Positions 1,137 to 23,638 of a DNA stretch of 64,000 bases are shown here, piece after piece. Within the stretch, counting starts at the first letter, position 1. The number at the start of each line of letters is the position of its first letter. Source of the stretch: Pelagibius sp. CAU 1746 (GTDB lineage: Bacteria > Pseudomonadota > Alphaproteobacteria > Kiloniellales > Kiloniellaceae); contig NZ_JBDOQT010000001.1 of the NCBI RefSeq assembly GCF_039839785.1, forward strand, positions 1,612,001-1,676,000. The letters are read 5' to 3'. The translations under genes and the position numbers were made by a program. Under the pieces are notes generated by a model. It did not search any database, was not told the origin of the DNA, and saw nothing but the letters and a program-made list of their open reading frames with translations.

Positions 1137-1215
<79 letters not shown>

Positions 1216-1865
1216 TCTCCCGCAGATAGTCAAGGTTTTCTAGGCACATACCCCGTGCTGGTGACCTGATTATCTCTTTCCAGATTCTCGCAGACAAGGC
1301 TTTTGGGCGCGAACCGTCACAGGCGGTGTGACAGGAGTGTGCCACCTCGCCTGTTGGAGAGGGGGCGCAGGGGCCACCCGGGTACCCGGGGTATAGTATG
1401 CATGGGCTCCCCATAAAATTCCTGATTTGAAAGTGTTAAGTACCTGTCGGAGACCTCGGATCGACTGAACCAGCTTGATCAAACCAAGCCGTTAAGTACC
1501 TCAGCCAGACCGTCCGCCGCTTTAAAGGCTGCGCCATTCAGCCTCCTGGGTAGATAGATACTCAAGTTGTCCCCAGGCTCGGTTTTCTGAAAACCGTTAA
1601 GCCAAGCATTTCGAGAGTGCGCCAGATCTTCAGGACCTAGTCCGAGACTGGGTCGCCCATTCAAGATATTGATTTCGCCACGTTACAGGAACGATCTTTC
1701 GCAAATCCCTATATAGGAGTCATAAAGTTTCGTTCAAGAATTGTAGTCTGGTGTTCTAGGTCATATTTATTGGTCACGCAGAAGGTTCACCTTCTCGCGA
1801 TGCGCCATTCGGTCTCTCGTTTAGTGGCTGACTGGATGGCGCCGATATTGTATCACGAGGAAAAA
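1216..1865. other. Left-end noncoding region of element 1
   Basis: About 650 bp without a convincing gene. It holds an inverted repeat GTCACA-N5-TGTGAC (1316-1332), the presumed arm-type site (1326-1344) and a perfect 14-bp palindrome CCCGGGTACCCGGG (1377-1390). A 61-codon minus-strand frame at 1479-1664 has no ribosome binding site and no recognisable motif. The prim-pol frame is open from 1770, but its best start is at 1866. Confidence 0.55.
1326..1344 (+). promoter_or_regulatory. Putative integrase/excisionase arm-type site, left end
   Basis: GTGTGACAGGAGTGTGCCA here matches GTGTGACAGCTGTGTGCCA at 17425-17443 in 17 of 19 positions and in the same orientation. Each copy lies just inside an att repeat, 110 bp from the left one and 34 bp from the right one. 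Position and conservation suggest binding of integrase or excisionase arms. This is inferred, not shown. Confidence 0.45.
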
Positions 1866-4121
1866 GTGAGAGAGACCAGTAGTTTAGTCCCTACATATAC
1901 TCCCGCCTACAGCCAACCGGCTGACTACGTACAAACACCCAAGACGGCCCTCGAATGGGCCAAGCATTACAGGTCTATGGGCTACCGGCCCATTCCAATT
2001 CCATACAAGGACAAGGCTCCTCGCCTGAAGGGCTGGGGAGAGCTTGCGCTTGACGGTAAGGAGCTCGAAGCAGCTTTCCGAGCAGAGCAGATGAATATTG
2101 GCATCAACCTCGGCGAAGCGTCTGGAGGACTTGTCGATATCGATCTCGACTGCGAGGAAGCGATTCGGCTAGCTCCCGCGTTCCTACCCCCAACTGAAGC
2201 GATCTTCGGTCGTTCCTCAAAGCCAAAGAGCCACTGGCTCTACAGGGTGACGGATTGCGGCGACCGGACCGCATTCAGTGGCCCTGATGGTGCGGGAATG
2301 CTGTTGGAGTACAGGGCCAATGGTAGCCAGACCGTCTTTCCGGGTTCGGTTCATCCTTCAGGTGAGAGAGTCGAGTTCGACTGCAAGGGTGATCCTGCTC
2401 ACGTCTCAAGAGACGACCTGCTATCTGCCGTCAGGAAGTGCGCAGCTGCATCCCTAATCGCCAAGTATTGGGCTAAGGGCTCTCGGCATGATCTTGCATT
2501 GGCTCTTTCAGGCACGTTGCTCAAGGGCGGTTGGTCTTCGGAAAACGCCGTCCAGTTCGTTGAAGCTGTGTGCCATGCTGCAGAGGATGAGGATGTCGAG
2601 GACCGGAAGAGATGCATTGCCGATACCGTCGCTAGGTTGGCTCGCGGTGAGCCAGTTGCCGGACCTTCTCGGTTGGCCGAACTGATTGGTGATCGATCCT
2701 GTAGCTGTGTCCAGGACTGGCTTGGGTTGAAGGTGTCAGTGATTTCCGCTTCGAGAGTATCTCATTCCGTGATGAATTCCGATTCGGGAGAGCTCCCGGT
2801 CTCAGATTCACACAATGGCCTTCTATTTGCCCAAAAGTGCTCAAGCAGGGCACGCTACTGCTATGAGCATGGCTGTTGGTATCTATGGATGGGTAAACAG
2901 TGGAAGCAAGACACCACAGATCAGGTGATTCTGGTGGGGCAACAGCTCGTCTGGGACTATGGCGGCTATCTTCGCAACCAGGTGTTACCAGAAAACCAGC
3001 AGCAGGTTTCAAGGTGGATGACGCAAACCCTCGATCAGCGAAAGCTCCGGAGCATGCTTGAACTGGCAAAGCCCCACTTGGCTGTAGGAGCGGATGAACT
3101 CGATAGCGATCCGTGGCTACTGAACTGTGAGAACGGCACCTTGGACCTCAAGACAGGAGCGCTGAGACCCCATAGCCCAGCAGACCTGATCACTAAGATC
3201 GTTCCGGTCTCCTACGACCCGAAGGCAGAGTGTCCAAAGTGGAACAACTTCCTGGACGGTGTCTGTGGCGGTGATCAAGAACTCGTCAGCTACCTCCAGA
3301 GGGTGATTGGCTACACGCTGACTGGTAGCACTTCCGAGCAATGCATGTTCTTGCTGCACGGGACGGGCGCTAACGGCAAGACGACATTCTTGAACGCGAT
3401 CAAGGATATCCTCGACCCCTATGCTCGTCAGGCGCAGGCAGAAAGCCTCATGGTCCGACGCTCCGAAGGGGCGCGGTCGGACATCGCGAGACTTGCTGGG
3501 GCGAGGTTGGTCGTAACGTCAGAGTCGGAAGCGAACCACAAGTTCGCTGAAGGTTTGGTCAAGCAGATGACCGGAGGAGATCCGATTACCGCCCGCTACC
3601 TCTATCAGCAGGAGTTCGAGTTCGTTCCTCAGTTCAAAATCTTCCTTGCGACGAACCGGAAGCCGAACATCGAAGGTACTGATGAAGGGATCTGGCGGCG
3701 AATTCACCTCATTCCTTTTGACGTGACGTTCCCTCTGGAAAAGAGGGACAAGGGTCTGCCTGAGAAGTTAAGAGCTGAGCAGCAGGGCATCTTGGCTTGG
3801 GCAGTTAAGGGGTGCTTGGCGTGGCAGAATGATGGGCTTCAGCCTCCCGAGAAAGTGCGCGCAGCGACCAAGGAGTACCGAGCCGAATCGGATCAGGTGG
3901 CTAAGTTCATTGACGATTGCTGTGAGCTGGCTCCTGAGCGCTTCAGCCCTTCGAAAGAGCTCTACGCTGCATACGAGGACTGGTGTGTCGAGACTGTCGA
4001 GACCCCTCTTCCGAAGTCAGAGTTTGCTAAGCGACTTGGTGGCCGTGGTCTACAACAGGGCAGGACGAAGAGCGAGCGGCGCTGGTATGGGATTCGGCTG
4101 AAAGACCAAACTGAAGCGTGA
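1866..4121 (+). CDS. Bifunctional DNA primase/polymerase - SF3 helicase (P4-alpha/D5 type) replication protein
   Basis: Initiates replication of the mobile element. The N-terminal third is a prim-pol (archaeo-eukaryotic primase) domain: ALEWAKHYRSMGYRPIPI, then GINLGEASGGLVDIDLD with the catalytic acidic pair, then a conserved SHWLYRV strand. The C-terminal half is a D5/P4-type SF3 helicase with Walker A GTGANGKTT near residue 499, a Walker B-type RLVVTSESE segment and ATNRKPNIEGTDEGIWRR (sensor/arginine region). The frame is open from 1770 (TTG) with an ATG at 1800. I chose GTG 1866 because GAGG sits five bases upstream, giving 751 aa. Such proteins are typical of P4-like satellites and integrative plasmids. 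Lower GC than the chromosome. Confidence 0.9.
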   Translation: MRETSSLVPTYTPAYSQPADYVQTPKTALEWAKHYRSMGYRPIPIPYKDKAPRLKGWGELALDGKELEAAFRAEQMNIGINLGEASGGLVDIDLDCEEAIRLAPAFLPPTEAIFGRSSKPKSHWLYRVTDCGDRTAFSGPDGAGMLLEYRANGSQTVFPGSVHPSGERVEFDCKGDPAHVSRDDLLSAVRKCAAASLIAKYWAKGSRHDLALALSGTLLKGGWSSENAVQFVEAVCHAAEDEDVEDRKRCIADTVARLARGEPVAGPSRLAELIGDRSCSCVQDWLGLKVSVISASRVSHSVMNSDSGELPVSDSHNGLLFAQKCSSRARYCYEHGCWYLWMGKQWKQDTTDQVILVGQQLVWDYGGYLRNQVLPENQQQVSRWMTQTLDQRKLRSMLELAKPHLAVGADELDSDPWLLNCENGTLDLKTGALRPHSPADLITKIVPVSYDPKAECPKWNNFLDGVCGGDQELVSYLQRVIGYTLTGSTSEQCMFLLHGTGANGKTTFLNAIKDILDPYARQAQAESLMVRRSEGARSDIARLAGARLVVTSESEANHKFAEGLVKQMTGGDPITARYLYQQEFEFVPQFKIFLATNRKPNIEGTDEGIWRRIHLIPFDVTFPLEKRDKGLPEKLRAEQQGILAWAVKGCLAWQNDGLQPPEKVRAATKEYRAESDQVAKFIDDCCELAPERFSPSKELYAAYEDWCVETVETPLPKSEFAKRLGGRGLQQGRTKSERRWYGIRLKDQTEA

Positions 4122-4726: not shown

Positions 4727-6022
4727 ATGAGTAGGCGTGCCGTTAATCGGGATCCGGTGTTCATCGATGTCTTTGCGGGTTGCGGTGGATTGAGCCTTGG
4801 CCTCCTTCGAGCAGGCTGGCGCGGCCTATTTGCCGTCGAGAAGGACGCTTTCGCATTTGACACGTTGCAATCCAACTTGCTTGGGCCAAACGCGCGCTAC
4901 GGCTACAACTGGGCGAGTTGGTTAGAGCAAAAGCCCTGGGCTATCGAGGAACTTATTTCGGCGCACTACGAGCGCTTGTCCAAGCTTCGCGGCCAGGTTG
5001 ATCTTCTTGCAGGGGGGCCGCCTTGCCAGGGCTTCTCTAGCGCCGGCAGGCGACGCCACAAAGACCCTCGTAATCGGCTCGTCGAGCGATACCTCGAGTT
5101 TGTCGACTTGGTACAACCCCGGATCGTGCTGATCGAGAACGTGAAGGGCATTACTTATGACTTCGCGGCAAGTAGCAGTTCGACCTCTCGACGAAATTTC
5201 GCAAACGAGCTCATCGCGCGCCTCGAAGAAAACTACCATGTCTACAAAGACACGGTTCCGTGTTCCGCATATGGCGTGCCTCAGCGACGACCGCGTTTCT
5301 TCCTTGTAGGCATTCTCAAAAATGACCTCGACCTACCTAACCGCGGCGATCCTTTTGCTCATCTCCAATCTGCAAAGGATGACTTCTTGTCGGCTAGGCG
5401 CCTTCGCGCAAAGGTAAGCTGCCAGCAAGCGATTTCCGATCTCGAAGTTGCGCGCGCAGGAACCTGGGAATGCCCTGACTCGAAGGGCTACGACGCAGTT
5501 CGCACGACCAAGCCACGCACAAATTTCCAACGCCTGATGCGCGACGGATACGACGGTCCTATCTCAGATACCCGTCTGGCAAAGCACAGGCCACACATAG
5601 TCAAACGGTTCGCCAAGATTATTGACGAATGCAAGAAATCGGACCGCCTCGACGTGCAAATCAATCGCGAAATGCGGGAGCGCTACGGCATCAAGAAGAT
5701 GGCAACACGTGTGTTGGACCCTGCGAAAGTCTCACCAACGATCACCAGCATGCCGGACGACCTATTACACTATTCAGAACCGCGTACGTTGACAGTGCGC
5801 GAGAATGCACGTCTCCAGACCTTTCCTGATTGGTTCTCCTTTCATGGGAAGTATACCACAGGCGGAGACCGGCGCGCACGAGAGGTACCTAGGTTCACGC
5901 AAGTCGCCAACGCGGTGCCGCCCTTGTTGGCGGAAATGTGGGGAGAGGTTCTACTGAAGTATCTCCGCCCTCAGAGACGAGCAAAGGCACAAAGAGCAAT
6001 CGCCAGAAGAGAGGCGGCCTGA
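4727..6022 (+). CDS. C5-cytosine DNA methyltransferase (Dcm/M.HhaI family)
   Basis: Transfers a methyl group from SAM to cytosine C5 in a specific DNA site. Motif I is FAGCGGLSLGL (residues 16-26). Motif IV is GGPPCQGFSS with catalytic Cys100. Motif VI is IENVKG (E137-N138-V139), motif VIII is VPQRRPRF (Q186-R187-R188), motif IX is RENARLQTFP and motif X is QVANAVPP. The span between VIII and IX is the target-recognition domain; its specificity cannot be read. The start has AAAGG just upstream. At 431 aa it is slightly long for a monospecific enzyme. No conventional type II endonuclease gene is adjacent. Instead it leads the DptFGH-like trio on the same strand, so I infer it protects self DNA from that trio. 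Confidence 0.95.
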   Translation: MSRRAVNRDPVFIDVFAGCGGLSLGLLRAGWRGLFAVEKDAFAFDTLQSNLLGPNARYGYNWASWLEQKPWAIEELISAHYERLSKLRGQVDLLAGGPPCQGFSSAGRRRHKDPRNRLVERYLEFVDLVQPRIVLIENVKGITYDFAASSSSTSRRNFANELIARLEENYHVYKDTVPCSAYGVPQRRPRFFLVGILKNDLDLPNRGDPFAHLQSAKDDFLSARRLRAKVSCQQAISDLEVARAGTWECPDSKGYDAVRTTKPRTNFQRLMRDGYDGPISDTRLAKHRPHIVKRFAKIIDECKKSDRLDVQINREMRERYGIKKMATRVLDPAKVSPTITSMPDDLLHYSEPRTLTVRENARLQTFPDWFSFHGKYTTGGDRRAREVPRFTQVANAVPPLLAEMWGEVLLKYLRPQRRAKAQRAIARREAA

Positions 6023-6148: not shown

Positions 6149-8272
6149 ATGGCTGAGACAGAAGATCTGCAACAATTTCCCGAGGGCTTGATCCGCTGGA
6201 GCGGATATCGCCACGGAGGAGTGCGGAAACCCTTCCAGCGGAACACCGGCCGTCCAACTGGAGACCAGTTCGAAACTCCGGTCGTCTTGCGCCTTAGGAG
6301 CTGGGTTGAAGGACTTGTTGCGGGAAATGATGTTCCGCGCGCGATCTTCCTCGTCGGCGGCCCAGGGAACGGTAAAACCGACGCCGTTGAAGGATGCATC
6401 GAGGCCCTTGATAGAGAGCTGAATGCTCGTGGGGCACTCTACGAGGCGTTCGCCACCCAGTACCATTCCCATAGAGACGAGCTACCACCACGCAAGACCG
6501 TAGTTGACCTGTCTTCGATAGGCGTGATCTTGCCAAGCCATCTACAGGTCTCTGTCTCACTCGTCCAAGACGCTACAGAAGGCGACCAGTCAATAGGCGC
6601 GTCTGCCGAACAGCTGCTCCTCGACGACATTGCAGGACATGTGGATGCCGAATCGGCTGGCATATACATATGCTGCGTGAATCGCGGCATCCTTGCTCAC
6701 GCTGCTTCGATAGCGGAAGAAAGCGGTGACTACTTCATTTCCGCAGACCTGCTCTCTAAAATTACAATGTCTGTTACCAGCGGTCCTACCGCCCCGTCTT
6801 GTTGGCCTCTCGAAGGCTATTCACATATCGGGGTGTGGCCCATGGATGTTGAATCTCTGGTAGCACCATCCGACACGGGCTTCGAGCAGTCAGTCGCTTA
6901 CAAAATCTTCGAATCGGCCCTCGAAGAGAAGCGGTGGAACGAGCCCTGTGAGCTTGGAACTCGGTGCCCGTTTTGCCAGAATCGTCGCCTTCTTACGCGC
7001 AAGGGCGTATTGGAATCGCTCGTTCAGCTCCTCTACTACTACGAGGTTAGCTCGGGTAAGAGATGGACGTTTCGCGATCTATTTTCGCTCGTCCCATACC
7101 TAATAGTGGGGGATTACTCTGAACTCGAGATTCGTGGGAAACGATTGTCCCCTTGTGATTGGGCAGCTGAACAGTATCGGATTGCCCGCGAAGGGCCGGC
7201 AAATAGTGTGGAACGCGATAGGGCTCCATTCTTGCTCATGTCGCGCTTGTTCCACCACCGCCTTTTCCCAAGATGGCCTGGTTTCGATCGCGGGGAACAC
7301 AGAAGTGCCAAGCGCGAGCTGTTCAAGGAAAAGCATTCAGATGAAGGTTTGCTAGCAGCCAGGGGCTATTTTCGGTTCGCGTCAAAAGCCCAAGAAATCA
7401 TTTCCCGTGCGAGCGGAGATATCCCTGATCGCATTCGTGACTCGCTTGGCCCAGCGCTGGAGCCAGCACTCTCTCCAAGCGAGAGGGTTCTGTTCTCCAA
7501 GGATGGTCAAGACTACGCCGTTGCAGATGTCGAAAACAGGTTGAGCCTATCTGTCCGAAACGGACTTGAGCTGGTTGGCACCCAAATCGAAACGCTTGAG
7601 AGAGACATTCTGCAGACGCTAGTCCTCGCAGATGAGGCTCTTGTCGAAGACAAGTTCCCTAGAAACCGGACTCGCCAGGCCCGCCTTCTCCAGTCCACTA
7701 TTCGACAATTCGCGGCGCGACTTGTGAAGCGCAGCCTGGGGGTTCGGCGGGCGGTATGTCGCGATGTGGATCATTTTGAGCGATACGTATCAGCAGCCCG
7801 TCAAACCGCTGCACAGAATGACGTGAGGAAGGAGCTTAGGAACCTCTTGCACGACTCGAACAACAAGTTTCGAGCGGGGCTAGCGACAACTTTTGGACAG
7901 CCAATTGCGGAACGATCTCGAGACGTGGCACTTCTCCTTCCCAAGATGGTGGCTGTTCAGCCTGTCCTGGCCGAAGACTCCGACAAGCGCCCAGCCGAGA
8001 ACCTCCCGTACTTTCGAATCGAAGGGCACTACGTCGCTCTGACATACGAGCTGTTTCGAGTGCTGGAGGAAGTCTCAGATGGCTTGCATGAAGCTTCGCT
8101 GCCCAGCGAGATCTATTCCCTTTTGGATCGTGTGAAATCCCTGGTGGCCGGGCAGGTGGTTCGAGACGAGCAAATCCTCAACGACGAGCCACATATCGTG
8201 CTGGGGTCTTCTCTCGACACCATTGAGTACGTGGGTGGCCAGTTCCACTTCTCAAGGGGAGGGCGCCAATGA
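6149..8272 (+). CDS. DptF-like P-loop ATPase of the defense cluster
   Basis: A 707-aa protein with Walker A GGPGNGKT (residues 70-77), a Walker B-like LLLDD near residues 155-160 and a following YICCVNRG strand that may be a sensor. A small cysteine cluster, C267-x5-C273-PF-C276 followed by QNR, may bind metal. It is the first of three genes with 4-bp ATGA overlaps. Size, fold and gene order resemble DptF of the DptF-G-H restriction module that acts beside DNA phosphorothioation. The likely role is an ATPase that couples sensing or loading to the large HerA/nuclease protein. The assignment rests on order and motif memory, so a different AAA+ defense ATPase remains possible. It starts 126 bp after the methyltransferase. 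Confidence 0.7.
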   Translation: MAETEDLQQFPEGLIRWSGYRHGGVRKPFQRNTGRPTGDQFETPVVLRLRSWVEGLVAGNDVPRAIFLVGGPGNGKTDAVEGCIEALDRELNARGALYEAFATQYHSHRDELPPRKTVVDLSSIGVILPSHLQVSVSLVQDATEGDQSIGASAEQLLLDDIAGHVDAESAGIYICCVNRGILAHAASIAEESGDYFISADLLSKITMSVTSGPTAPSCWPLEGYSHIGVWPMDVESLVAPSDTGFEQSVAYKIFESALEEKRWNEPCELGTRCPFCQNRRLLTRKGVLESLVQLLYYYEVSSGKRWTFRDLFSLVPYLIVGDYSELEIRGKRLSPCDWAAEQYRIAREGPANSVERDRAPFLLMSRLFHHRLFPRWPGFDRGEHRSAKRELFKEKHSDEGLLAARGYFRFASKAQEIISRASGDIPDRIRDSLGPALEPALSPSERVLFSKDGQDYAVADVENRLSLSVRNGLELVGTQIETLERDILQTLVLADEALVEDKFPRNRTRQARLLQSTIRQFAARLVKRSLGVRRAVCRDVDHFERYVSAARQTAAQNDVRKELRNLLHDSNNKFRAGLATTFGQPIAERSRDVALLLPKMVAVQPVLAEDSDKRPAENLPYFRIEGHYVALTYELFRVLEEVSDGLHEASLPSEIYSLLDRVKSLVAGQVVRDEQILNDEPHIVLGSSLDTIEYVGGQFHFSRGGRQ

Positions 8273-9810
8273 CCACGGAGGAATTCCTAAAGAAACCCTG
8301 GGCACCGGCGAACATCCATGAAGCCTATGACAACAGCTTCCTGCACATGCGCCCTGCTCCTGAATACGCATCTGGCGAAGTTATACTGGCCTCAACATAT
8401 CGGGAAGTTGGTTTCAAAGGAGACGCGGTTTCCGAAGGTCGTACTCCAAAAAATGGCAGAGAGTTCCAAAAGAACCTCGACAAGGGAAGACGTCCTCGAG
8501 CGGATGCGGTAGGCACTGACATCGATATTGAGGCATGGCGGCGAATCATAACTGGGACACTTCGCAGTCCAAAACAGCCAAACCAAGCGGCCAAGCGTTT
8601 TCTCCAAATTAGCCCGGTTGTTCCCGACGCCGCCCTTTACACACTTTCGGCGAGACTCTCGGCAAATTCGTGGAACCCAGGTGCGCTGGTCGCCCGGATC
8701 ATACTCCTGGGGAAGCACAGCGAAGCCGACGCAAAGGAGCTTTGGAACCAGCTATTTCACTCGCTCTCAGTCAGCGAAGATGACGACATTTGGGCTCGTT
8801 TCCTACAAGAAGAGTTCGAATCTTGGCGCAACAAGCTCCATATGGCTTCCTGGTCAAGACCTAGTGATCTCTCGGACAGCCTCGCCACATCGGCATGGCG
8901 TAAGGCTTGGCTACCGACACCGGCTGCAAGGTTTGTCATTGATCTTGAGTACACTCTTGCGCTCAAGATTCATCTTACGCGGCGCCAGTGGATTAGCATG
9001 GTCGAAGCTATGCTCCGTCTTGGCACCGCTTCTTACATCCTATGGATCTGCAACGCGAACATGCAGTGTTTTGCCATTTTTCGACAGATCCTGAATGGTG
9101 CTCAAGCCCCTACACGTGCGGAACTTGAGCAGCACCTCAGCGTCGGATCCGGATATTGGCGATATGGGCAGTTAGCAGCAGGAACAATTACCGATTTCTC
9201 CACGGGATTCGTTAAGGCACGAGCTGGAATCAACCTGCTCCTTCACTACCTGAATGGCTCTTACAAGCACCTTTCAACGTGTCTTGGAAACCTCGAGGAG
9301 TTGGAAGCTTTTTGCCAATGGCTGCGCGAGAATCGCACGTGCATCAACGAGGAAGACTTCAGGCATGACTACCAAGATATCTTGGAGAGTGATCAACGCC
9401 TGATGGCGGGAAAAAAGGGCATCTCCGCCAACGTGAAGGAATTCTTGCGCCACGCACTTGGCCAACGGCAGACTGCGGAGCCTGGTCTCGACAGCTACGA
9501 CCAAGGTTACTTCTTAGCGAAGAAGGGAGGTTACCGGACAGCGCCATGGATCGTGTCGCTTGGCCCAGTGTCAGTTCTGTCGCTAGTCAATGCATGCACT
9601 CATAGCGCAAAGGGTCCTCGCACAGTCGAGGATCTATGCCGTCATCTCGGTGAATACGGAATCGATGTTCAAGCTCAAGCAGTGCCCGGGTCCCAACTAG
9701 GCCAGACACTTCGCAACCTGGGTCTGGTTTTGGATAGCCCGGACGCAGAGGGTGGCATGGTGGTGATTAACCCATTTGAACATGTCGCCAAGGAACAAGC
9801 TAAATCATGA
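8269..9810 (+). CDS. DptG-like component of the defense cluster (no enzymatic motif)
   Basis: A 513-aa protein with no catalytic motif that I recognise. It is mostly alpha-helical in appearance and soluble. A conserved-looking C-terminal stretch contains DQGYFLAKKGGY, APWIVSLGPVSVLSLV and a probable winged-helix-like end (TVEDLCRHLGEYGIDV). The start codon overlaps the previous stop (ATGA) and is preceded by GGAGGG, so translation is coupled. Its own stop overlaps the next start in the same way. The position between an ATPase and a giant HerA-type protein matches DptG of DptFGH modules, which is the basis of the call. Confidence 0.6.
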   Translation: MTTEEFLKKPWAPANIHEAYDNSFLHMRPAPEYASGEVILASTYREVGFKGDAVSEGRTPKNGREFQKNLDKGRRPRADAVGTDIDIEAWRRIITGTLRSPKQPNQAAKRFLQISPVVPDAALYTLSARLSANSWNPGALVARIILLGKHSEADAKELWNQLFHSLSVSEDDDIWARFLQEEFESWRNKLHMASWSRPSDLSDSLATSAWRKAWLPTPAARFVIDLEYTLALKIHLTRRQWISMVEAMLRLGTASYILWICNANMQCFAIFRQILNGAQAPTRAELEQHLSVGSGYWRYGQLAAGTITDFSTGFVKARAGINLLLHYLNGSYKHLSTCLGNLEELEAFCQWLRENRTCINEEDFRHDYQDILESDQRLMAGKKGISANVKEFLRHALGQRQTAEPGLDSYDQGYFLAKKGGYRTAPWIVSLGPVSVLSLVNACTHSAKGPRTVEDLCRHLGEYGIDVQAQAVPGSQLGQTLRNLGLVLDSPDAEGGMVVINPFEHVAKEQAKS

Positions 9811-12800
9811 GCAACTTGGCAATCGCCCTTGCTGAATACCTCGAACGTGAACTACGGGTGTCAGCAGAGACTTCATCGGACGACACGCTTCGAGTGCTTT
9901 TCGCCGGGCCTCCCATGAGGCAACTACAGCAGGTCTTCGAGCAGCTAACTGGCGATCACGGCGGAATGAGAATTGAAACTGCTCGAGGAGCAATCGAGGT
10001 CCCAGTATACCTCGTCGACGCAACAACTAAAGATCCTTCCGAGAGAACCTCGGCCGCTCGCTGTACTCCCAACTACCTTGTCCAGGTACGCACTCATGGG
10101 CATCCTGTATTCCTCGCGTTGCACGAGGTTGGGATTGCCATGAGTCAGTCCCTCACAACTTCGGTTAAGCCGCTAGGCATCCGTAGTGAAACAGAGAGCT
10201 TTGACGATTGGTTTCGAGAACCATTGATTGATGAGCTCATCCGAAGGGCAATTGGCAATGCCTTCGGCAGCGCTCACTCTGATAGTGCCCGCGCTGTAAT
10301 CACACACTCGCTCAGCCAGGCCTGGAATGCCGACGAGCGACACCGAAACAAAGCCGCTACGTGGGCAATTCTTGAAAAGCTCCTGGAGTTTCAGCCGGCA
10401 GCCAGCACTCCTTCCGAAGCGCTCTCGGCTGTACTTGGTTTGCCTTCGTGTTCCACCTCCGAATTCGGAAGCAAGACGCATTTGCAGCTCCTCGATCGCC
10501 TCGCCGAGATGATGCAAGCGCATGGTCTCAGGAAGGGTTTCGAAGAGCTTCAAGAAAACGCTGGTGACAACTTATCATCATCCTTGCAATCTTTCCGTCA
10601 ACACGTTGAAGATCAGGCAATCTTCGAGGCCAGCGAATTCGCACGTAATCCACTGCAGATCTACTCTCCCCTGCGCAGCAAGGAAGAGGAAATTCCGAGT
10701 TGGTGGCGAGACCTCGATGTCGAGGCGTGGATAACACTACTTGATTCCAGCGACGAGGCCGAGCCAACCGGGAAGCTCGGCGTCAGGGTCACAAATCAGG
10801 TGGCGGCGGCTCCTCGTGGCATGCCGCTCCTTACCCGTGACCGAGTCGATTTTGAAGTCTCAGTAGACGATGCCGAAAACCCCGTAGCCGTCACAATAAG
10901 CCGCGCAAGTGGCCAATCGAGACTTGAGGAAATAGGTCAGGTCACGATTGGTACCGATGCTTCACAGACATACTCGGACAAACACGTGCCTACTCATGAG
11001 CGGTTTGTGCGTTATAAGTTGGAAGCTGACGGATACTCGCCGGTAAGCATAAAGGTGATCATTCTTGATGAATATGGCCCTGGGGTCGTCGTGTCCTGTC
11101 GGGGTGCCAAAAAGGCGACCCCATTCAAGCTGAACAAGAAGGCCAAGGACAACGAAAATCGAACGATCAAACGCTACGAGTGCGATCTTGAACTGCCCGG
11201 AATGGGGGCGCACACCTTAGACTTCTACACGTCCAGCCGCACAACGCTAGGCGAATTAGTTATCGGCTACGAAGTGGACTCTGGGCAAGAGGATGCAGTC
11301 GAGCGACCTATACAAAGATCAGACGAGCACCATTCGACTAGTCTCATTGAGTCCGATGAGGAGTGTTTCTACGACTTCTTAGCTGATCCAGCGCAATCTG
11401 GAGAGCGGGTCCCTTTCAGAGTTTACCTATCCGCCGACGACGTCGAGCCAACCGGTGCGACCAGCGAGTTCGATAGACTGGTGATTGCGAACCGGGCATC
11501 AGCAAGACGCGAGCACGTTAATGCGCGCGTCGAGTCCTCGCATTCCCGCGTGACGAATCTAGAGGAATGGGCCCTCGAAGATTCAGAGTCATTTCGACCA
11601 CTTGTTTTGGGACCGGATTATTTGGACGCGTGGCACAAGCCCGATTGGAAGACTCACGACTCGATTTCTAACTTAAGCATGCCAGTAGACCCGCGCCCGT
11701 CACACGAACAGTTCCAGGCTCCGGAGAGGTACCTGTCCGCGCGCTCCAAGATATTGGACCTTCTCCGACCTTCCGGCGACGAACCGACTCCTGCTGCCGG
11801 AACGTTTCTCCTTCACGAGCTCATGCAGAATGCTTCATTCTCAAAAGCTCTCACTGAACTTCTAGACTCCTACCTCCATTGGCTGGAGGCAGACTATGAT
11901 CTCGCCGCGTGGACCGACTTGATCTCGATCCACGAGTCGCAGGCTGGCGTCCAGGCTCTGAATCCCACTCCCTATGCAATTCTCCTCACCCCTCTGCACC
12001 CAATTCGGTTAGCCTGGCAATGCCGAGCGCAGGAAGTCCTCCAAGAAGCAGTTCGCAAGAACTCCCGGTGCCCGGCGGCCAGCATGCTGAACCCTTCTTA
12101 CTTTCCTGATTGCATGCTCCTTCCTTGCCGAACCGGAGCTGGTCAAGTGACTCGGCGACCCTTCGCGGCCATGGCTAGTTCGTCGGATTATTGGAGCGTG
12201 CTTTGGTCGGTGAACGCCATCGGAAAGCTCGGCGGAGCGAAAGAAGACCCAGTCTTAGGAGCCGAATTTGGAATCAACGTAGATGGATTGGCAAGTGGAT
12301 TCAGCTCTCAACAGGTAATCCGGGCGCTCGACGAAGCTTCTAGACTACTCTCGGCCAAGTCTTCACTGCGAGTTGGTGTCTCAAGCGATACTACGGGCGC
12401 CGGGAGCTGCAACGATGGAATCGACGCGTGGTGTACAGCAAACCTAGGGCCCGAAGAAGACTACTGGTACACGGCAGGACAGCGCACGCTGGCTGTCATA
12501 GATCACCGGCCACAGTCCCTTCATCCTGAACAGGCTGCAATGGCTTCGCTTACGCATCGTACAAACGGTGCAGTCCAATGGTTCAAGCGGCGAGAGATAG
12601 ATACCACACAACAAAAGTACGACCTTTCCATAATCGCTCATCTCGGAACGATGAACCACGAGTTCACAAAACAAGGAATCAGGTCTGCGATTGATCCGAC
12701 GTCACTCGCCCGTTGGCGAGTACGCAAACAGCTACCTAACCAGAGCACTGCGTTCATTGCAGAGTCGAGAATAGGAGAAGTGCCTGCAAACGTCGACCGC

Positions 12801-15305
12801 GAGGCTACCGTTGGCAAGCTCTTGGGCTGCGTAGACGCCATCGAGCGAAGCTGCCGAGATGAGTTCGATAGCTACGTTTTTGCACCAAACATGAGCGTTC
12901 TTTCGAGTGTAGTTGATTCATCATTTTACAGCGCCGTGTCTTCCTCGAATATCGACGCCGCATGCTTCTTCGGATCAACTGGCAGGGCATATCTTTGGGA
13001 CTACGAACTCCCGTCGTATGCTCGACGCGCAGGTGAAAACAGTGGTTACTTTCTGCTGGCCCGAGAGACGGAAGGAATGCTCGTCTCAGTAAGGTCAGCC
13101 CTTGCCTTGCTTGGAGGTCACGGCGAGTTGGAAGATGAAAGAATTTCCGACCTACTTGAGGAAGTATCCCGTCGTGGAATGCCTACACTGAAGCGACTCA
13201 CTGCGGGCGGCTCAATGTCACTCGGTGAGGTTGGGATGCTCGTGGCGCTGCGGGTGTTCCAATCGGAATTCGAGCGCTCACCAGCTGGCCCAGGCTTGCT
13301 CCCTATAAAGGGAGAAGATGAGACACTAAATCTCGTCATTCCTGCTGATCCATTCAGGAATCACTTTGAGGACCTCCGGGTCGCATTGGAAAACAGGCAA
13401 GGCGAACGACCCGATTTGCTTGTGCTCAGTCTGAGCTTTGTCTCGGGCATTCCCATGAAGCTCAGAATTACGCCTATCGAAGTGAAGGCGAGAGGTGGGC
13501 TACTGTCGGAGGCGGATCGAAAAGCCGCACTACTCCAAGCAAGCCTGTTTGGTCGCTTCTTGACAAAAGCCCAACAGCATGCGGCAGACACCGAGCTTTG
13601 GGGTGTTGCATGGCGGAGCTTATTGTCAACTCTCCTTGACTACGGTTTTCGCGTATACGGCCAGTTAGACCAGTTTATGAAACAGAGCGAGTGGGCCTTT
13701 CAGCACTCAGCGACCCTTCGGTCCCTTGCAAATGGCGAACTCGATGTTGAGATTGACGAACGCGGACGGTTGATTGTCATCGAAAAAGTTGCGGCATCGG
13801 CACCCAAAGATACTGATAGAGACGGCTTTCAAGAAACCATTTCCTTGTCGCACTCGGATGGGTTCTCGGTCCTCGCACAGGGCAATTCCCCACTCCTAAA
13901 AGCGATGCGAGAGCAGCTTAAGGATTGGATGCTCAAGCCAGAGGCCGAAAAGCCTTCATCGGAACCGATTGGCGACGTGCCTGATTCGGAAGGACCTATT
14001 TCGCCCGCTTCTGTGCCCAGTGAGTCGCCGTGCGAACCAGTACAGAACGACGGGACCTCGGAGCCCTCCTTTGCTGGTAGTGGCGCCACCGTTCCAGAGG
14101 TCACTCCCTCAGAGGCCACCACTGAAAGTGATCGGGAAAAAGGAGGAAAGGGCACAAGTTCAGGTGAGTTCGTTGCTGGGTCAGAATCGGGAATCCAGTT
14201 CCAGGTCGGACATACAATTCATAGCTTCAATTCGGAAGACGCGTACTTCTTCCCGGGCAATACCGCCCTTAACCAGCTCAACGTGGGAATTGTTGGAGAT
14301 CTTGGCACGGGCAAAACTCAGCTAATCCAAGCCCTCGTTTACCAGCTGCGGCAGCGACCGGAGACAAATCGAGGGCACCGGCCGAACGTGCTAATCTTCG
14401 ATTACAAGCGAGACTACACGAAGCCGGATTTCGTGGAAGCGACTGGGGCTCGAGTGATTAGCCCATTCGACATGCCCCTGAATTTGTTTGACATCAGCAA
14501 TAGCTCGCAGCGAAGAAACGCATGGTTGGAACGATCAAAGTTCTTCTCGGATATTCTAGACAAAATCTACACCGGCATCGGGCCGGCGCAACGCCAACGG
14601 ATCAAGGGGGCGGTTAAACAAGCTTACGATGCTGCATCAGACGCCGGTAGATCCGCGCCGACGATAGATGACGTCTTCAACGCTTACGCGGCCGCCAACA
14701 AGGGCAACATAGATTCGCCATACTCGATTATGAGCGACCTAATTGATGGCGGCTACTTTGTTGCTAACCAGGGAGAGGTTCAGCCTTTCTCCGAGTTCAT
14801 CAAGGGCGTAGTGGTCATTGACCTTGCGGAGGTCGGTCAAGACGACAAGACGAAGAATATGCTCGTCGTCATATTCCTGAATCTGTTCTATGAATACATG
14901 CTTCGCATCGAAAAAAGGCCATTCATTGGTGCGTCGCCACAGCTTCGCTTCATCGACACCATGCTCCTAGTTGATGAAGCAGATAATATCATGCAATATG
15001 AGTTCGACGTTCTTAAGAAGATCTTGCTACAGGGTAGAGAGTTCGGTGTGGGTGTACTGTTGGCCTCGCAGTACCTATCGCACTTCAAAACTGCCCACGA
15101 GAATTACCTTGAGCCGCTTCTAACCTGGTTCCTCCACAAGGTGCCAAATATCAGCGTCAAGGATCTCGAGGGGATCGGCTTGACAAACGCAAGCGCCGAC
15201 ACTGTAAACACGATCAAGTCGCTGGAAAGCCACCAGTGCCTATACAAGACACTCGGCGTCGACGGAAAATTCATTCGGGGCATTCCGTTTTACACGCTTC
15301 GATAG
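9807..15305 (+). CDS. DptH-like giant protein: PD-(D/E)XK nuclease plus HerA/FtsK-type ATPase
   Basis: An 1832-aa protein, the probable restriction effector. The N-terminal 1200 residues contain no motif I can name, apart from a TPLHPIRLAW segment. A PD-(D/E)XK-type nuclease site is visible: P1202-D1203 on a strand, then E1225-V-K1227, followed by an LLQASLF helix that may carry the usual glutamine. A linker rich in Ser, Glu and Pro (about 1375-1452) leads to a HerA/FtsK-like motor. That motor has Walker A GDLGTGKT (1497-1504), Walker B LLVDEAD (D1723-E1724) and the C-terminal LLASQYLSHFK and HKVPNISVKDLEGIGLT segments. The ATPase end and total size match DptH of phosphorothioation-dependent restriction. 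The gene is coupled by ATGA to the preceding one. Confidence 0.72.
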   Translation: MSNLAIALAEYLERELRVSAETSSDDTLRVLFAGPPMRQLQQVFEQLTGDHGGMRIETARGAIEVPVYLVDATTKDPSERTSAARCTPNYLVQVRTHGHPVFLALHEVGIAMSQSLTTSVKPLGIRSETESFDDWFREPLIDELIRRAIGNAFGSAHSDSARAVITHSLSQAWNADERHRNKAATWAILEKLLEFQPAASTPSEALSAVLGLPSCSTSEFGSKTHLQLLDRLAEMMQAHGLRKGFEELQENAGDNLSSSLQSFRQHVEDQAIFEASEFARNPLQIYSPLRSKEEEIPSWWRDLDVEAWITLLDSSDEAEPTGKLGVRVTNQVAAAPRGMPLLTRDRVDFEVSVDDAENPVAVTISRASGQSRLEEIGQVTIGTDASQTYSDKHVPTHERFVRYKLEADGYSPVSIKVIILDEYGPGVVVSCRGAKKATPFKLNKKAKDNENRTIKRYECDLELPGMGAHTLDFYTSSRTTLGELVIGYEVDSGQEDAVERPIQRSDEHHSTSLIESDEECFYDFLADPAQSGERVPFRVYLSADDVEPTGATSEFDRLVIANRASARREHVNARVESSHSRVTNLEEWALEDSESFRPLVLGPDYLDAWHKPDWKTHDSISNLSMPVDPRPSHEQFQAPERYLSARSKILDLLRPSGDEPTPAAGTFLLHELMQNASFSKALTELLDSYLHWLEADYDLAAWTDLISIHESQAGVQALNPTPYAILLTPLHPIRLAWQCRAQEVLQEAVRKNSRCPAASMLNPSYFPDCMLLPCRTGAGQVTRRPFAAMASSSDYWSVLWSVNAIGKLGGAKEDPVLGAEFGINVDGLASGFSSQQVIRALDEASRLLSAKSSLRVGVSSDTTGAGSCNDGIDAWCTANLGPEEDYWYTAGQRTLAVIDHRPQSLHPEQAAMASLTHRTNGAVQWFKRREIDTTQQKYDLSIIAHLGTMNHEFTKQGIRSAIDPTSLARWRVRKQLPNQSTAFIAESRIGEVPANVDREATVGKLLGCVDAIERSCRDEFDSYVFAPNMSVLSSVVDSSFYSAVSSSNIDAACFFGSTGRAYLWDYELPSYARRAGENSGYFLLARETEGMLVSVRSALALLGGHGELEDERISDLLEEVSRRGMPTLKRLTAGGSMSLGEVGMLVALRVFQSEFERSPAGPGLLPIKGEDETLNLVIPADPFRNHFEDLRVALENRQGERPDLLVLSLSFVSGIPMKLRITPIEVKARGGLLSEADRKAALLQASLFGRFLTKAQQHAADTELWGVAWRSLLSTLLDYGFRVYGQLDQFMKQSEWAFQHSATLRSLANGELDVEIDERGRLIVIEKVAASAPKDTDRDGFQETISLSHSDGFSVLAQGNSPLLKAMREQLKDWMLKPEAEKPSSEPIGDVPDSEGPISPASVPSESPCEPVQNDGTSEPSFAGSGATVPEVTPSEATTESDREKGGKGTSSGEFVAGSESGIQFQVGHTIHSFNSEDAYFFPGNTALNQLNVGIVGDLGTGKTQLIQALVYQLRQRPETNRGHRPNVLIFDYKRDYTKPDFVEATGARVISPFDMPLNLFDISNSSQRRNAWLERSKFFSDILDKIYTGIGPAQRQRIKGAVKQAYDAASDAGRSAPTIDDVFNAYAAANKGNIDSPYSIMSDLIDGGYFVANQGEVQPFSEFIKGVVVIDLAEVGQDDKTKNMLVVIFLNLFYEYMLRIEKRPFIGASPQLRFIDTMLLVDEADNIMQYEFDVLKKILLQGREFGVGVLLASQYLSHFKTAHENYLEPLLTWFLHKVPNISVKDLEGIGLTNASADTVNTIKSLESHQCLYKTLGVDGKFIRGIPFYTLR

Positions 15306-15430: not shown

Positions 15431-16147
15431 ATGCCAATGTCGGCACCTTCTTCGACCAGCTTACCCAGGATACCCTGGAACCGCGTTCAGCGATTCCAGG
15501 AGGACATTCTTCGTTGGTTCAAAGTGGAGGGCCGCCACTTTTCTTGGCGGGCTCCTTCAGCAACTACCTATCAGGTTGTTGTTTCTGAGATGCTGCTCCA
15601 GAGGACTCGCGCAGATACCGTTGAGCGATTCCTCCCGAATTTCTACAGAAGGTTCCCCTCTTGGTGGCATTTAGCGGAGGCTCAAGAATCGGAACTTCAA
15701 AAGTTCTTGGAACCGATTGGCCTTTCGCATCGGCGCGCGGCGTCTTTCAATGCACTCGCCAAAGAAATCGTCAGCAGAAACGGCCACTTTCCATTCGAGC
15801 GGTCGGAAATCGAAGCGTTGCCGGGGGTCGGTCAGTATATAGCCAATGCAATCCTGCTTATGGCCCACGGAAAGCGAGAGCCTCTCCTAGACGTGAACAT
15901 GGCGCGTGTCGTTGAAAGGTACTTCGGTCCGCGTAAGCTTGCGGACATTCGCTATGATCCCTACTTGCAGAAGCTCGCACGGAGAGTTTCGGATCACGAT
16001 TCGCCCAAAGAAATCAACTGGGCAATCCTCGATCTGGCCGCCAAGATATGTACACCTCGTCATCCACATTGTGAGAACTGTCCGCTGAAACTTCGTTGCC
16101 GATTTGCGCCGGATGTCTTCGCAGAAGGACGAGATAGCACATCCTAA
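15431..16147 (+). CDS. MIG-type T:G mismatch DNA glycosylase (HhH-GPD, 4Fe-4S)
   Basis: A 238-aa member of the EndoIII/MutY superfamily. The helix-hairpin-helix LPGVGQYIAN holds Tyr136 where EndoIII has its catalytic Lys. Asp154 follows in LLDVNMARVV. The C-terminal 4Fe-4S loop is C207-x6-C214-x2-C217-x5-C223. It lacks the NUDIX-like C-terminal domain of MutY. Tyr at the EndoIII-Lys position is the mark of the MIG thymine-DNA glycosylase, which removes T from T:G and is encoded beside a 5mC methyltransferase in Methanothermobacter. The same association occurs here, so I infer repair of deaminated 5-methylcytosine made by the element's own methylase, the job done by Vsr elsewhere. A MutY-like adenine glycosylase is the alternative. 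Confidence 0.85.
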   Translation: MPMSAPSSTSLPRIPWNRVQRFQEDILRWFKVEGRHFSWRAPSATTYQVVVSEMLLQRTRADTVERFLPNFYRRFPSWWHLAEAQESELQKFLEPIGLSHRRAASFNALAKEIVSRNGHFPFERSEIEALPGVGQYIANAILLMAHGKREPLLDVNMARVVERYFGPRKLADIRYDPYLQKLARRVSDHDSPKEINWAILDLAAKICTPRHPHCENCPLKLRCRFAPDVFAEGRDSTS

Positions 16148-16428: not shown

Positions 16429-17412
16429 TCAGTCTGTGAATTGATTGAGCTTCTTTGCAACTTCTTCGGGCCGAAGATGGGTGTACCTGAACAGCATTCG
16501 GTAGTCCTTGTGGCCGCTGATCAAGGCTACTTCTGGAACGCTTAACCCTCGCTCAAACAGCCTGCTGATTGCTTCGTGGCGAAGATCGTGAAAGCGAAGA
16601 TCCTCGATTTGCGCTCTGCGGACCAGTCGGTCCCAGTTCATTCGAACCGCGGCCTCTGTCATCGGGAAGATTCGTGACGAACTTGCCGGAAGACTATCCA
16701 GTATGATTTGAGCTCGATTTGATAGGGGGATCAGACGGTCATCACCATTCTTGGTGTCCGTGATCTTGAGTAGGTGATTTGTCTGGTCCCAATTGTCCCA
16801 TCTAGCTTTCAGGAGCTCTCCTCGACGCATAGCCGTTTCCAGGGCGACTTCGATCAGGGGAAGCATCAGCGGATTGCGGCACCGCCCTGCAACCTTGAAC
16901 AAACTTTCTTCCTCTTCTGGGGTGAGGCGGCGTTCCCTTGGCTTTGGACCTTTGGGCAACCGTACCTTCTCGAACGGCTTGTGCGGGCCCTCAATGTCCC
17001 ATTCATCACGGGCAATCTTCAGCACATGCCGGAGGAGTATCAAGTCGTACTGACAGGTTCGCTGGCCGTCGTTCAATCTTCTGTCCCGGAAAGCCGCCAA
17101 TTGAGCTGAGGTAAGCTCGGTCAGGCGCAAGGATGCAACGGGATCTTTGAGGAGCCTCCTGATGCGTCTTGTCTCACCTGCAGCCGATTTCTTGTGGGGC
17201 GTGACCTCCTGAAGGTACCTTTCCAGAAGGGTCTGCAGATCGCAATCTAGGGGCTCTTTACGGGCGAAGTCTCCCAGTTCGATCTGCGACTCAATGACTC
17301 CGCCCCATCTTCTGGCGTCTGAAAGGGTGCTGAAGGACTTGGTAACAGGGCGGTGCCCCTTCCGGCGAATCTGGACCTGGTACCGGCCTCCACGTTTGCG
17401 AATCGTTGCCAT
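16429..17412 (-). CDS. int: Tyrosine site-specific integrase of element 1
   Basis: A 327-aa phage-type integrase that presumably recombines the element at tRNA-Lys. The N-terminal region (MATIRKRGGRYQVQIRRKG) is an arm-type DNA-binding domain, followed by a SAM-like core-binding domain. The catalytic set is visible: Arg196 in AMRRGEL, His275-x2-Arg278 in HDLRHEA, His301 in SGHKDY and nucleophile Tyr310 in RYTHL. A longer frame runs back through the att repeat, but ATG 17412 is preceded by GGAGAGCC and gives the normal N-terminus. The gene starts only 66 bp from the right att repeat and reads into the element. Confidence 0.95.
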   Translation of the reverse strand: MATIRKRGGRYQVQIRRKGHRPVTKSFSTLSDARRWGGVIESQIELGDFARKEPLDCDLQTLLERYLQEVTPHKKSAAGETRRIRRLLKDPVASLRLTELTSAQLAAFRDRRLNDGQRTCQYDLILLRHVLKIARDEWDIEGPHKPFEKVRLPKGPKPRERRLTPEEEESLFKVAGRCRNPLMLPLIEVALETAMRRGELLKARWDNWDQTNHLLKITDTKNGDDRLIPLSNRAQIILDSLPASSSRIFPMTEAAVRMNWDRLVRRAQIEDLRFHDLRHEAISRLFERGLSVPEVALISGHKDYRMLFRYTHLRPEEVAKKLNQFTD

Positions 17413-17424
17413 TTTGGCTCTCCA

Positions 17425-17443
17425 GTGTGACAGCTGTGTGCCA
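17425..17443 (+). promoter_or_regulatory. Putative integrase/excisionase arm-type site, right end
   Basis: GTGTGACAGCTGTGTGCCA, the partner of 1326-1344 (17 of 19 identical). It lies between the integrase start and the right att repeat and inside a CCAGTG/CACTGG inverted repeat (17422-17450). Bound integrase could also repress its own gene from here. Confidence 0.45.
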
Positions 17444-17477
17444 GCACTGGGGTATCGCCCGCTAAGTCCTTGATATC

Positions 17478-17554
<77 letters not shown>

Positions 17555-19171: not shown

Positions 19172-19525
19172 CCTGCCCCCGGACTTAGTACCACTCGCTA
19201 GTTTAGACTGCTGCGGTCTGCGTGTAAGCGTCGATCTGCTTCGTATCGACCCGCTGGAGCCAGGTGCGAACCGCATTGGCCGTGAACTCTGCGCCATTGT
19301 CGGATCGCATGTGATCGGGCGGCCCATGCCGGACAAGGAGCCCGGCCAGGACCTGCAGCACGTCGTCAGACCGCAGACGCCGGGCGACCTCGATGGCCAG
19401 GCACTCACGGCTGTACTCATCGATCACTGTCAGCATGCGAAATACACTGCCGTCATGGGTTCGGGCCTGGACGAAGTCGTAGGCCCAGACATGGTGTTGC
19501 CAGCTGGGCCGCCGCTTCGGGTCCG
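19169..19525 (-). mobile_element. IS3-family insertion sequence fragment (OrfB integrase core)
   Basis: Minus-strand coding for HHVWAYDFVQARTHDG, VIDEYSRECLAIEV and HMRSDNGAEFTANAVRTWL, the middle of the rve (DDE) domain of IS3-group OrfB with two of the catalytic acidic residues. The C-terminal third with the last Glu and the upstream OrfA are missing. A terminal sequence TGACCTGCCCCCGGACTTAG lies at 19169-19188. The fragment is joined to trbB near 19525 with no second terminus, so it is a deletion remnant. Confidence 0.75.
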
Positions 19526-20207
19526 CGCACCTCACCGATGGGGATACGGTCGGGGCCAATCGCAGCGATGAGCGCGAGGTCGGAGAGCGTCGCGACGCCG
19601 TCCTTGGTACGCAGGGCCACGAGGTTCGGCGTCAGGCATTGCAGTTCGCGCGTGTCCTCGATCAGCACCACACGGTCTGAGGTCTTGGCGACTTCTGGGA
19701 GGAGCGCATTGGTCAGCGTGGTCTTGCCGGTTGATGTGCCGCCGGCGACGAGGATACTGGCGCGCATGGCGATCGCTTCGCGCAAAGCGTCGGAGGCTCT
19801 CACATCCAAAATGTGGGCGCGATATAGTCGTCGAGGGTGAAAACGGCGACAGCAGGTTTACGGATCGCGAAGGTGGGTGCCGCGACGACAGGCGGCAGCA
19901 ACCCCTCGAACCGCTCTCCCGTCCCAGGCAGTTCTGCAGACACACACGGCGCTCCCGCATGAACTTCGGCGCCGACATGATGCGCGACCAGCCTGACGAT
20001 CCGCTCACCATCGGCGGCGGAAAGCCGCTCACCGGTATCGGCAAGACCTTCACTGAGCCGATTCACCCAGAGCCGTCCCTCGGGGTTGAGCATAACTTCG
20101 ACGACGGTAGTGTCATCGAGTCATGAGGTGACATGCGGCCCGAGCGCCGTGCGAAGCAAGCGGGAGCCGCGCTGGATCGCTTCTATCTGGAAATGTTGGA
20201 CGGTCAT
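19526..20207 (-). pseudogene. trbB: TrbB-type conjugation ATPase, broken
   Basis: The VirB11-like ATPase of a P-type conjugation system. It begins MTVQHFQIEAIQRGSRLLRT at 20207. It shows the NPEGRLWVNRL and [21 protein letters not shown] segments, Walker A GGTSTGKTT and the IEDTRELQC and DRIPIGEVRG motifs. It is inactive for three reasons: a TGA replaces the expected Trp at codon 29 (20121-20123), a frameshift occurs near 19805, and the C-terminal third is replaced by the IS3 fragment. Neighbouring trb/tra genes are absent. It indicates that island 2 descends from a conjugative element. Confidence 0.85.
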
Positions 20208-22568: not shown

Positions 22569-22903
22569 CTGTTCTTGCCCTTAAGTTGTTCGAGGAGTTG
22601 GTCGAGTTTTCGGTAGCGCGAGGCCCATTGTTTGCGCTGACCTTTGAGCCATTCTTCGACGGCTGCATATTTTTCGGGATTGAGTTCGCAAATCCTGACC
22701 CGTCCCACCTTCCTGGTGGTGATCAGGCCCGCATTCTCCAGCGTCCTGATGTGCTTCATAAACGGCGGTAAAGCCATGTCGAAAGGTGCGGCCAGATCGC
22801 TGACCGAGGCCGGGCCATCGCCAAGCTGCCGCAGGACTGCCCTGCGGGTGCTGTCCGCGAAAGCGTGGAACACGGTATCGAGTTCGGATGAATTGTTATC
22901 CAT
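22565..22903 (-). CDS. ArsR/SmtB-type winged-helix repressor of the SRPBCC operon
   Basis: A 112-aa wHTH protein: FHAFADSTRRAVLRQLGDGPASVSDLAAPF is helix 1-3 (two adjoining blocks), HIRTLENAGLITTRKVGRVR is the recognition helix and wing, and EEWLKGQRKQWASRY is the C-terminal helix. No Cys metal site is present, so it belongs to the non-metal SdpR-like group usually found with AHSA1 proteins. ATG 22903 is preferred over TTG 22927. GGTAAGT repeats directly upstream probably form its operator, suggesting autoregulation. Confidence 0.88.
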   Translation of the reverse strand: MDNNSSELDTVFHAFADSTRRAVLRQLGDGPASVSDLAAPFDMALPPFMKHIRTLENAGLITTRKVGRVRICELNPEKYAAVEEWLKGQRKQWASRYRKLDQLLEQLKGKNR

Positions 22904-22906
22904 ATA

Positions 22907-22948
22907 GGTAAGTATAAGGCGCATCAAAACTTACCGCAAGAGGTAAGT
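22907..22948 (-). promoter_or_regulatory. Operator of the ArsR-type repressor
   Basis: A perfect inverted repeat ACTTACC-N6-GGTAAGT lies at 22929-22948, and a third GGTAAGT at 22907-22913. All sit within 45 bp upstream of the repressor start, on its promoter. Dyads of this kind are the usual targets of dimeric ArsR proteins. Confidence 0.6.
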
Positions 22949-22979
22949 GTTGGTTGCCTTCCAAAAGATAGGATTCCGC

Positions 22980-23583: not shown

Positions 23584-23638
23584 TGACTCTTAATCAGCGG
23601 GTCCAAGGTTCGAGTCCCTGTACGCCCACCATTTCCCC
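23584..23638 (+). repeat. Third tRNA-Lys fragment (right attachment site of island 2)
   Basis: It matches 17504-17558 from the anticodon stem (TGACTC) through the encoded CCA and the following TTTCCCCA, with one change in the T-stem (CCCTG for CCTTG) that breaks a base pair. The 5' half of the tRNA is absent. It is the ancestral chromosomal 3' end displaced by the oldest integration. Confidence 0.85.

Follow-up and report, generated by a model that had tools for sequence, protein, structure and literature searches.

A candidate MIG-type mismatch glycosylase in the Vsr position of a methylase-linked, DndFGH-like cassette on a Pelagibius mobile element

A mobile element in Pelagibius sp. CAU 1746 carries a C5-cytosine DNA methylase, three genes in an order recalling DndFGH, and a short HhH-GPD glycosylase. 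The question raised by this locus is which lesion the glycosylase removes, and why a repair enzyme should belong to a putative defence cassette at all; the original prediction had read it as a dedicated T:G glycosylase substituting for Vsr. The window is the whole stretch of DNA that was analysed (64,000 nucleotides of contig NZ_JBDOQT010000001.1), and coordinates refer to it unless another locus is named.

The element and its cassette

The element, of about 16 kb, is inserted in tRNA-Lys. Its genes run in the order primase, C5-cytosine methylase, F, G, H and glycosylase, followed by an integrase on the opposite strand:

1137..1212, + strand: tRNA-Lys(CTT), left attachment copy (ARAGORN)
1770..4121, + strand: P4-type phage/plasmid primase-helicase (TIGR01613, 333.1 bits, over cut-off)
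4727..6022, + strand: C5-cytosine DNA methylase (TIGR00675, over cut-off)
6149..8272, + strand: protein F, 707 aa, P-loop GGPGNGKT at 6356-6379 (Walker A Lys in 68/68 rows with the residue)
8269..9810, + strand: protein G, 513 aa, without family match
9807..15305, + strand: protein H, 1832 aa, DndH-like C-terminal part (PADLOC DndH 1.2e-75, residues 1219-1830)
15431..16147, + strand: predicted MIG-type HhH-GPD glycosylase (Pfam, residue alignment, tree, fold comparison)
16429..17526, - strand: tyrosine integrase of the element (PF00589, 2.3e-24)
17476..17551, + strand: tRNA-Lys, right attachment copy, first two bases changed (74/76 bases as in the left copy)

The claim that the glycosylase closes the cluster holds in that it is the last same-strand gene of the cassette; it fails for the element, where the opposite-strand integrase still precedes the right end. 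One of the seven other genomes of the genus (G052) has an empty site for the element: its left flank with the tRNA-Lys runs directly into the right flank (matches at C3:195726-196649 and C3:196578-196732, respectively, both at 87% identity). The right-flank match at tRNA-Lys barely exceeds the tRNA in the remaining six genomes. Farther to the right lie a third, partial tRNA-Lys copy (23584-23631; 48 bases, 98% identical) and an open frame judged by eye to be an integrase fragment (22896-23366, - strand), probably a second, decayed tandem element at the same tRNA site. Overlapping frames at 19203-19809 (- strand), by eye a transposase piece and a piece of a conjugation-system P-loop ATPase, are perhaps the remains of another mobile element.

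The methylase has its GGPPCQG motif at 5012-5032, with the Cys in 60/60 rows, and is matched by generic Type II models of PADLOC. Protein H has a PD-(D/E)XK-like motif at 13407-13493 (Asp, Glu and Lys in 67/67 rows) and a HerA Walker A at 14295-14318 (Lys in 65/65 rows); in the comparison with one canonical DndH (L147) the aligned region is the HerA part only, with a probability of 92.8. For F and G no firm family was obtained from PADLOC (2023), Pfam, NCBIfam or profile alignment; hhalign probabilities against the L147 counterparts were 11 for F and 0.4 for G. The P-loop part of F reached 59 (L149) and 92 (L150) against ATPases beside other DndH-like proteins, values that may reflect general P-loop likeness. 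The DptF family TIGR03238 gave 4 weak matches in 200 genomes, 0 over cut-off. DndH family PDLC02684 was matched in 33 of 398 genomes, mostly weakly and over the HerA part; five such stretches were inspected, among which L148 is the cassette of L024 again.

The cassette thus resembles DndFGH (and HerA/FtsK capture systems) in its three-gene F-G-H order and in the C-terminal nuclease/HerA part that H shares with DndH. It differs in having a C5-methylase where classical systems have phosphorothioate genes, and in that a 5mC repair gene is usual in cassettes of the window type. Rakesh, Aravind and Krishnan (2024, PMC10853773) treat DndFGH as a standalone system and place cytosine methylases with another one, CxC-DndE; in the main text of that paper "glycosylase" and "mismatch" occur 0 times, and for "Vsr" the count is also 0. 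PADLOC is blank for F and G, and 5mC-dependent restriction is the putative role of the cassette.

Residues, tree and fold of the glycosylase

The open reading frame at 15431-16147 is intact, and its 238-aa product matches Pfam HhH-GPD (3.1e-14, above cut-off) and not the Vsr family PF03852. Residues assigned by alignment are Glu53, Arg58, Ala61, Tyr136, Asp154, Trp197 and Cys207/214/217/223; the chain stops right behind the Fe-S (four-Cys) loop, so that a MutY C-domain is absent. The HhH-GPD fold, Tyr136, Asp154, the four-Cys loop and the lack of the C-domain are therefore all present as originally claimed. The mutY equivalog model is the top NCBIfam match both for this protein (158.4 bits; cut-off 286.5) and for the thymine/uracil-DNA glycosylase Mig.MthI itself (153.4 bits). 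The sole glycosylase match in PADLOC is PDLC03398, "Type II nicking endonuclease" (115 bits, residues 21-225), which we guess to be a model for methylase-linked repair proteins of this kind.

The residue alignment comprised 6 glycosylases from the repair slot of such cassettes (the window protein included; slot glycosylases below), 11 MIG-like plasmid proteins, 22 MutY and 13 Nth; the label "MIG-like" was given after sequence retrieval, from length and residues. The two positions of MutY that confer adenine specificity are Val and Gln in 22/22 MutY, Ala and Trp in 6/6 slot glycosylases (Ala61 and Trp197 in the window), and Ala (Gly in L115) and Leu or Trp in 11/11 MIG-like plasmid proteins, Mig.MthI (L080) included. 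The window glycosylase is thus without equivalents of MutY Val45/Gln182, the counterparts in Mig.MthI being Ala50 and Leu187. Trp at the second pocket position is also found in L010 and in the Thermus plasmid relatives L012, L109 and L120. Exchange at the two pocket positions was reported to shift Mig.MthI towards A:G, and conversion of the MutY Val/Gln to the Mig residues to create no T:G activity (PMC2714593); because of the latter result, Ala61 and Trp197 are to be taken as markers and not as proof.

The position of the catalytic Lys of EndoIII is Lys in 13/13 Nth and Tyr136 in the window glycosylase. Tyr also stands there in 5 of the 22 MutY (L002, which is the host's own, L108, L110, L112 and L117), in the truncated L116, and in MutY of B. 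stearothermophilus (PMC2714593). Tyr136 was accordingly rejected as the residue that decides for MIG: in the original prediction of a MIG pattern, the Tyr itself stands but, being shared with some MutY, is a weak argument and not diagnostic. The pocket residues, by contrast, are MIG-like.

Mig.MthI (plasmid pFV1, Methanothermobacter; PDB 1kea) is likewise a short HhH-GPD protein with a four-Cys loop and with matching Tyr, Ala, Arg and Asp, whose plasmid gene lies 1.4 kb from that of a C5-methylase. It differs in sequence (28% identity to the window glycosylase in the structural alignment), in having Leu in the base pocket where the window protein has Trp, and in its surroundings, pFV1 having an NgoPII-family endonuclease and the window a DndFGH-like cassette. 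With MutY the window glycosylase shares the HhH-GPD fold, the Fe-S loop and the Glu/Asp catalytic pair; it is set apart by the missing C-domain, the missing Val and Gln, and its place outside the MutY clade.

That place was determined in a tree of 52 rows, from which three sequences were omitted: L003, which is the window gene itself, L004, which has no profile match, and L116, whose Cys loop is broken. The 22 MutY form a single clade (100/100) with the window glycosylase outside, Nth form their own clade (100/100), and the slot glycosylases with L010 form a clade (99/98) outside both and apart from Mig.MthI. Phylogeny, proposed earlier as a check, thus did not place the protein inside MutY: in the AU test a grouping of MutY with the slot glycosylases was rejected (p 0.0016), and MIG and slot glycosylases as one group were not rejected (p 0.41). 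The branching order among MIG-like rows is unsure because several branches are long.

The AlphaFold model of the window glycosylase (six-sequence alignment; mean pLDDT 81.5, both ends low) has 1kea as its top match in Foldseek and in the structural aligner; families missing from the fold search were not counted as evidence. The structural Z was 21.9 over 213 residues for 1kea vs 21.0 for the E. coli MutY core, and because a gap below 1 is a tie, the fold alone leaves the two undecided. By sequence the best match among solved structures is MutY (127.9 bits, vs 117.1 for 1kea).

Plasmid records matching the window glycosylase numbered 91, of which 17 were retrieved, chosen from the better tblastn hits and not at random, with pFV1 added by accession. 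An annotated cytosine methylase lies in the retrieved flanks of 10/11 MIG-like plasmid genes vs 0/6 annotated plasmid MutY genes. Four relatives (L010-L013) adjoin C5-methylases without F, G or H; further plasmid relatives lie beside annotated cytosine methylases, F-G-H there being judged by annotation only. Phage records gave 27 matches to the window glycosylase, and viral contigs one relative (L146), beside an MvaI/BcnI endonuclease. L146:1-1867 (a predicted viral contig) and L010:6842-8693 hold close slot-glycosylase relatives outside the cassette, directly after MvaI/BcnI-type endonucleases; the L010 gene (7998-8693) has an in-frame stop near its start and looks broken or misread.

The repair slot across cassettes

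Cassettes of the window type numbered 71 (65 from a scan of species genomes, 1 from a scan of viral contigs, the window, and 4 plasmids), and the slot was readable in 65; near copies L037 and L038 and the broken cassette L073 were all counted. The scan alignment consisted of five G proteins, 3/5 from Vsr cassettes, so the Vsr share may be inflated. A C5-methylase was found by profile in 64 of the 65 readable cassettes. Vsr is present in 45, a glycosylase in 6 (window, L014, L016, L017, L063 and L070), neither in 14 and both in 0. "Vsr substitute" is thus literally borne out, Vsr occupying the same position in most of the related cassettes and never accompanying the glycosylase; the absence of Vsr from all six glycosylase cassettes has a hypergeometric P of 4.7e-4, kinship being ignored. 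Vsr stands after H in 42/45 and before the methylase in 3/45. The methylase is downstream and on the other strand in L014 and L017, and L063 has its glycosylase on the other strand. Among the 4 plasmid records with relatives of G, methylase-F-G-H is followed directly by vsr in 3 (Sinorhizobium, Rhizobium, Shinella), and the fourth (Pseudoalteromonas) has neither Vsr nor glycosylase. In viral contigs a single-protein search for G gave no match, and the alignment search one cassette, L079.

In-cassette repair is not obligatory, since 14/65 cassettes are without both enzymes. A search for decayed Vsr or glycosylase in these loci (tblastn, E 0.01) gave hits in 7/14, none extending beyond H by more than 10 bases; because the hits stem from query frames overlapping or repeating the end of H, no remnant is recognized. 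Several individual loci depart from the common arrangement. In L078:17512-19831 methylase and Vsr adjoin each other downstream of H, the Vsr lying 2.3 kb after H, behind the methylase; the place of the repair gene is taken by a GIY-YIG protein in L021:17085-17672 and by an HNH protein in L015:17012-18250. L074 and L075 have distant F-G-H (G about 26% identical) with a divergent C5-methylase right behind H, lack both Vsr and glycosylase, and are possibly a separate branch of the cassette system. The Arenimonas cassette L073 looks decayed, each of F, G and H being broken up into several frames.

A tree of F and G was made by a quick method from 66 rows, L038 (near copy of L037), L066, L068, L071 and L073 being omitted. 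A 50-row, mostly proteobacterial clade holds 41 Vsr cassettes, 7 with neither enzyme and 2 cut; outside it are the 6 glycosylase cassettes (Planctomycetota, Bacteroidota, Gammaproteobacteria and the window), 5 with neither, 1 cut, the Vsr-bearing L020/L077, and 2 outgroup rows (neither). L020/L077 are sisters of the glycosylase-bearing L017 (99*). This tree requires at least two changes between Vsr and glycosylase; the glycosylase cassettes show no significant clustering on it, 57/500 shuffles being as low.

Methylases were compared by pairwise identity and in a tree of 58/71 cassettes and 4 plasmid methylases, from which 10 cassettes without a long methylase stretch and L025, L038 and L066 were left out. 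Between the window and L064 (Bradyrhizobium, Vsr slot) the methylases are 72% identical, with 67% in the variable region, F, G and H being only 34-36% identical; against L014 (glycosylase slot) F, G and H are 56-59% identical and the methylase 43%. The window glycosylase therefore works beside a methylase kind that is found elsewhere with Vsr. In L020 and L031 the methylases are 94% and the Vsr proteins 88% identical, with F, G and H at only 31-32%, so that methylase and Vsr, at opposite cassette ends, look to have been exchanged together. L028 and L026 are the counter-case (methylase 43%, Vsr 75%); acceptance of degenerate motifs, reported for neisserial Vsr proteins (PMC12907096), may explain cases of this type. 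Over 41 Vsr cassettes (820 pairs), methylase identity and Vsr identity had a partial correlation of 0.18 with F-G-H controlled for (partial Mantel p 0.038); between Vsr and F-G-H, with the methylase controlled for, it was 0.31. Strict co-movement of Vsr and methylase was rejected, the overall signal being weak (0.18 vs 0.31) and the two pairs pointing opposite ways.

Proposed role and meaning

The glycosylase is very probably a MIG-type, monofunctional mismatch glycosylase for T:G (and U:G) that does the job of Vsr in a DndFGH-like, 5mC-marking system. The methylase would mark self DNA with 5mC, and F, G and H (P-loop protein, protein G and nuclease/HerA translocase) would restrict unmarked DNA. 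Spontaneous deamination of 5mC would leave T opposite G; the glycosylase would flip out and remove the T via Asp154, with Tyr136, Ala61 and Trp197 shaping the pyrimidine pocket, and AP endonuclease, polymerase and ligase of the host would then restore C. With the 5mC mark and its T:G repair in one cassette, the element would carry both the mutagenic mark and the remedy. The folds of Vsr and HhH-GPD proteins are not known to be related. The two share the slot, the presumed lesion (T:G from deaminated 5mC) and the kind of methylase served; they differ in family (PF03852 vs HhH-GPD) and in chemistry, Vsr being a nickase that cuts the strand at T:G (PMC12907096), whereas the window protein is predicted to remove the base.

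Three other readings were weighed against this one. The protein could be a truncated MutY, a mere passenger in the element that takes A out of A:8-oxoG pairs. MutY is indeed its best solved match by sequence and its top NCBIfam match, though the latter holds for Mig.MthI too, and Tyr occurs in MutY as well. Ala/Trp in place of the invariant Val/Gln, the rejected tree placement, the score far under the mutY cut-off and the missing C-domain speak against it; a full MutY (L002, above the mutY cut-off) is already present in the host, and for a passenger, recurrence in six cassettes at the place of Vsr would be unexpected, so that we consider this reading highly improbable. Slightly less credible again is a defence effector attacking modified bases in phage DNA. 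Such a role would suit a gene in a putative defence cassette, and glycosylase-based phage defence exists, e.g., Brig1; against it, the slot is otherwise filled by a T:G repair nickase that never accompanies the glycosylase (0/65), and relatives adjoin C5-methylases where F, G and H are absent (L010-L013).

The least probable of the three is general repair of deaminated bases, U:G among them, that is not specifically linked to the methylase of the element. Mig.MthI does act on U:G besides T:G (PMC2714593), but cassette position and the exchange with Vsr point to 5mC, and the host already has three UDG-superfamily genes: one of family 4, one resembling 2d3y, a uracil-DNA glycosylase of solved structure, and one resembling 3ikb, which is uncharacterised. 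These might give some backup repair. The host has, in addition, an Nth and a further HhH-GPD protein, its fourth, which gives a weak AlkA-type match; no match to Vsr (PF03852) was found in its assembly (98.6% complete, 5 contigs), and the single PF00145 match is the methylase of the element.

Beyond the MIG-type assignment, a joint reading is possible, if on the whole doubtful: a class of DndFGH-like, 5mC-based restriction system not yet described, with deamination repair as a standard module that would have two interchangeable solutions; a context-dependent Vsr that would tend to move with the methylase despite opposite cassette ends; and a context-free MIG that would stay with F-G-H and free the element to change methylases, as that of the window apparently did. 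It loses some weight because, over all Vsr cassettes, Vsr tracks F-G-H at least as closely as it tracks the methylase.

It is already known that a MIG glycosylase may lie on one replicon with a 5mC methylase (pFV1) and that Vsr may adjoin its methylase; for the cassette itself and the exchange of Vsr and MIG within one system, no description was found in the open-licence literature searched, which is limited evidence. To our knowledge, the MIG family is known mainly from one archaeal plasmid enzyme, and six bacterial MIG-type glycosylases would here be added to it. The locus also draws attention to a DndFGH-like family that is linked to a methylase and for whose F and G PADLOC 2023 offers no model. 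The cassettes amount to a natural experiment in which one cassette and one kind of lesion are served by two different repair enzymes in the same slot, an arrangement suggesting that mobile defence elements bear a real burden from the mutations that 5mC causes.
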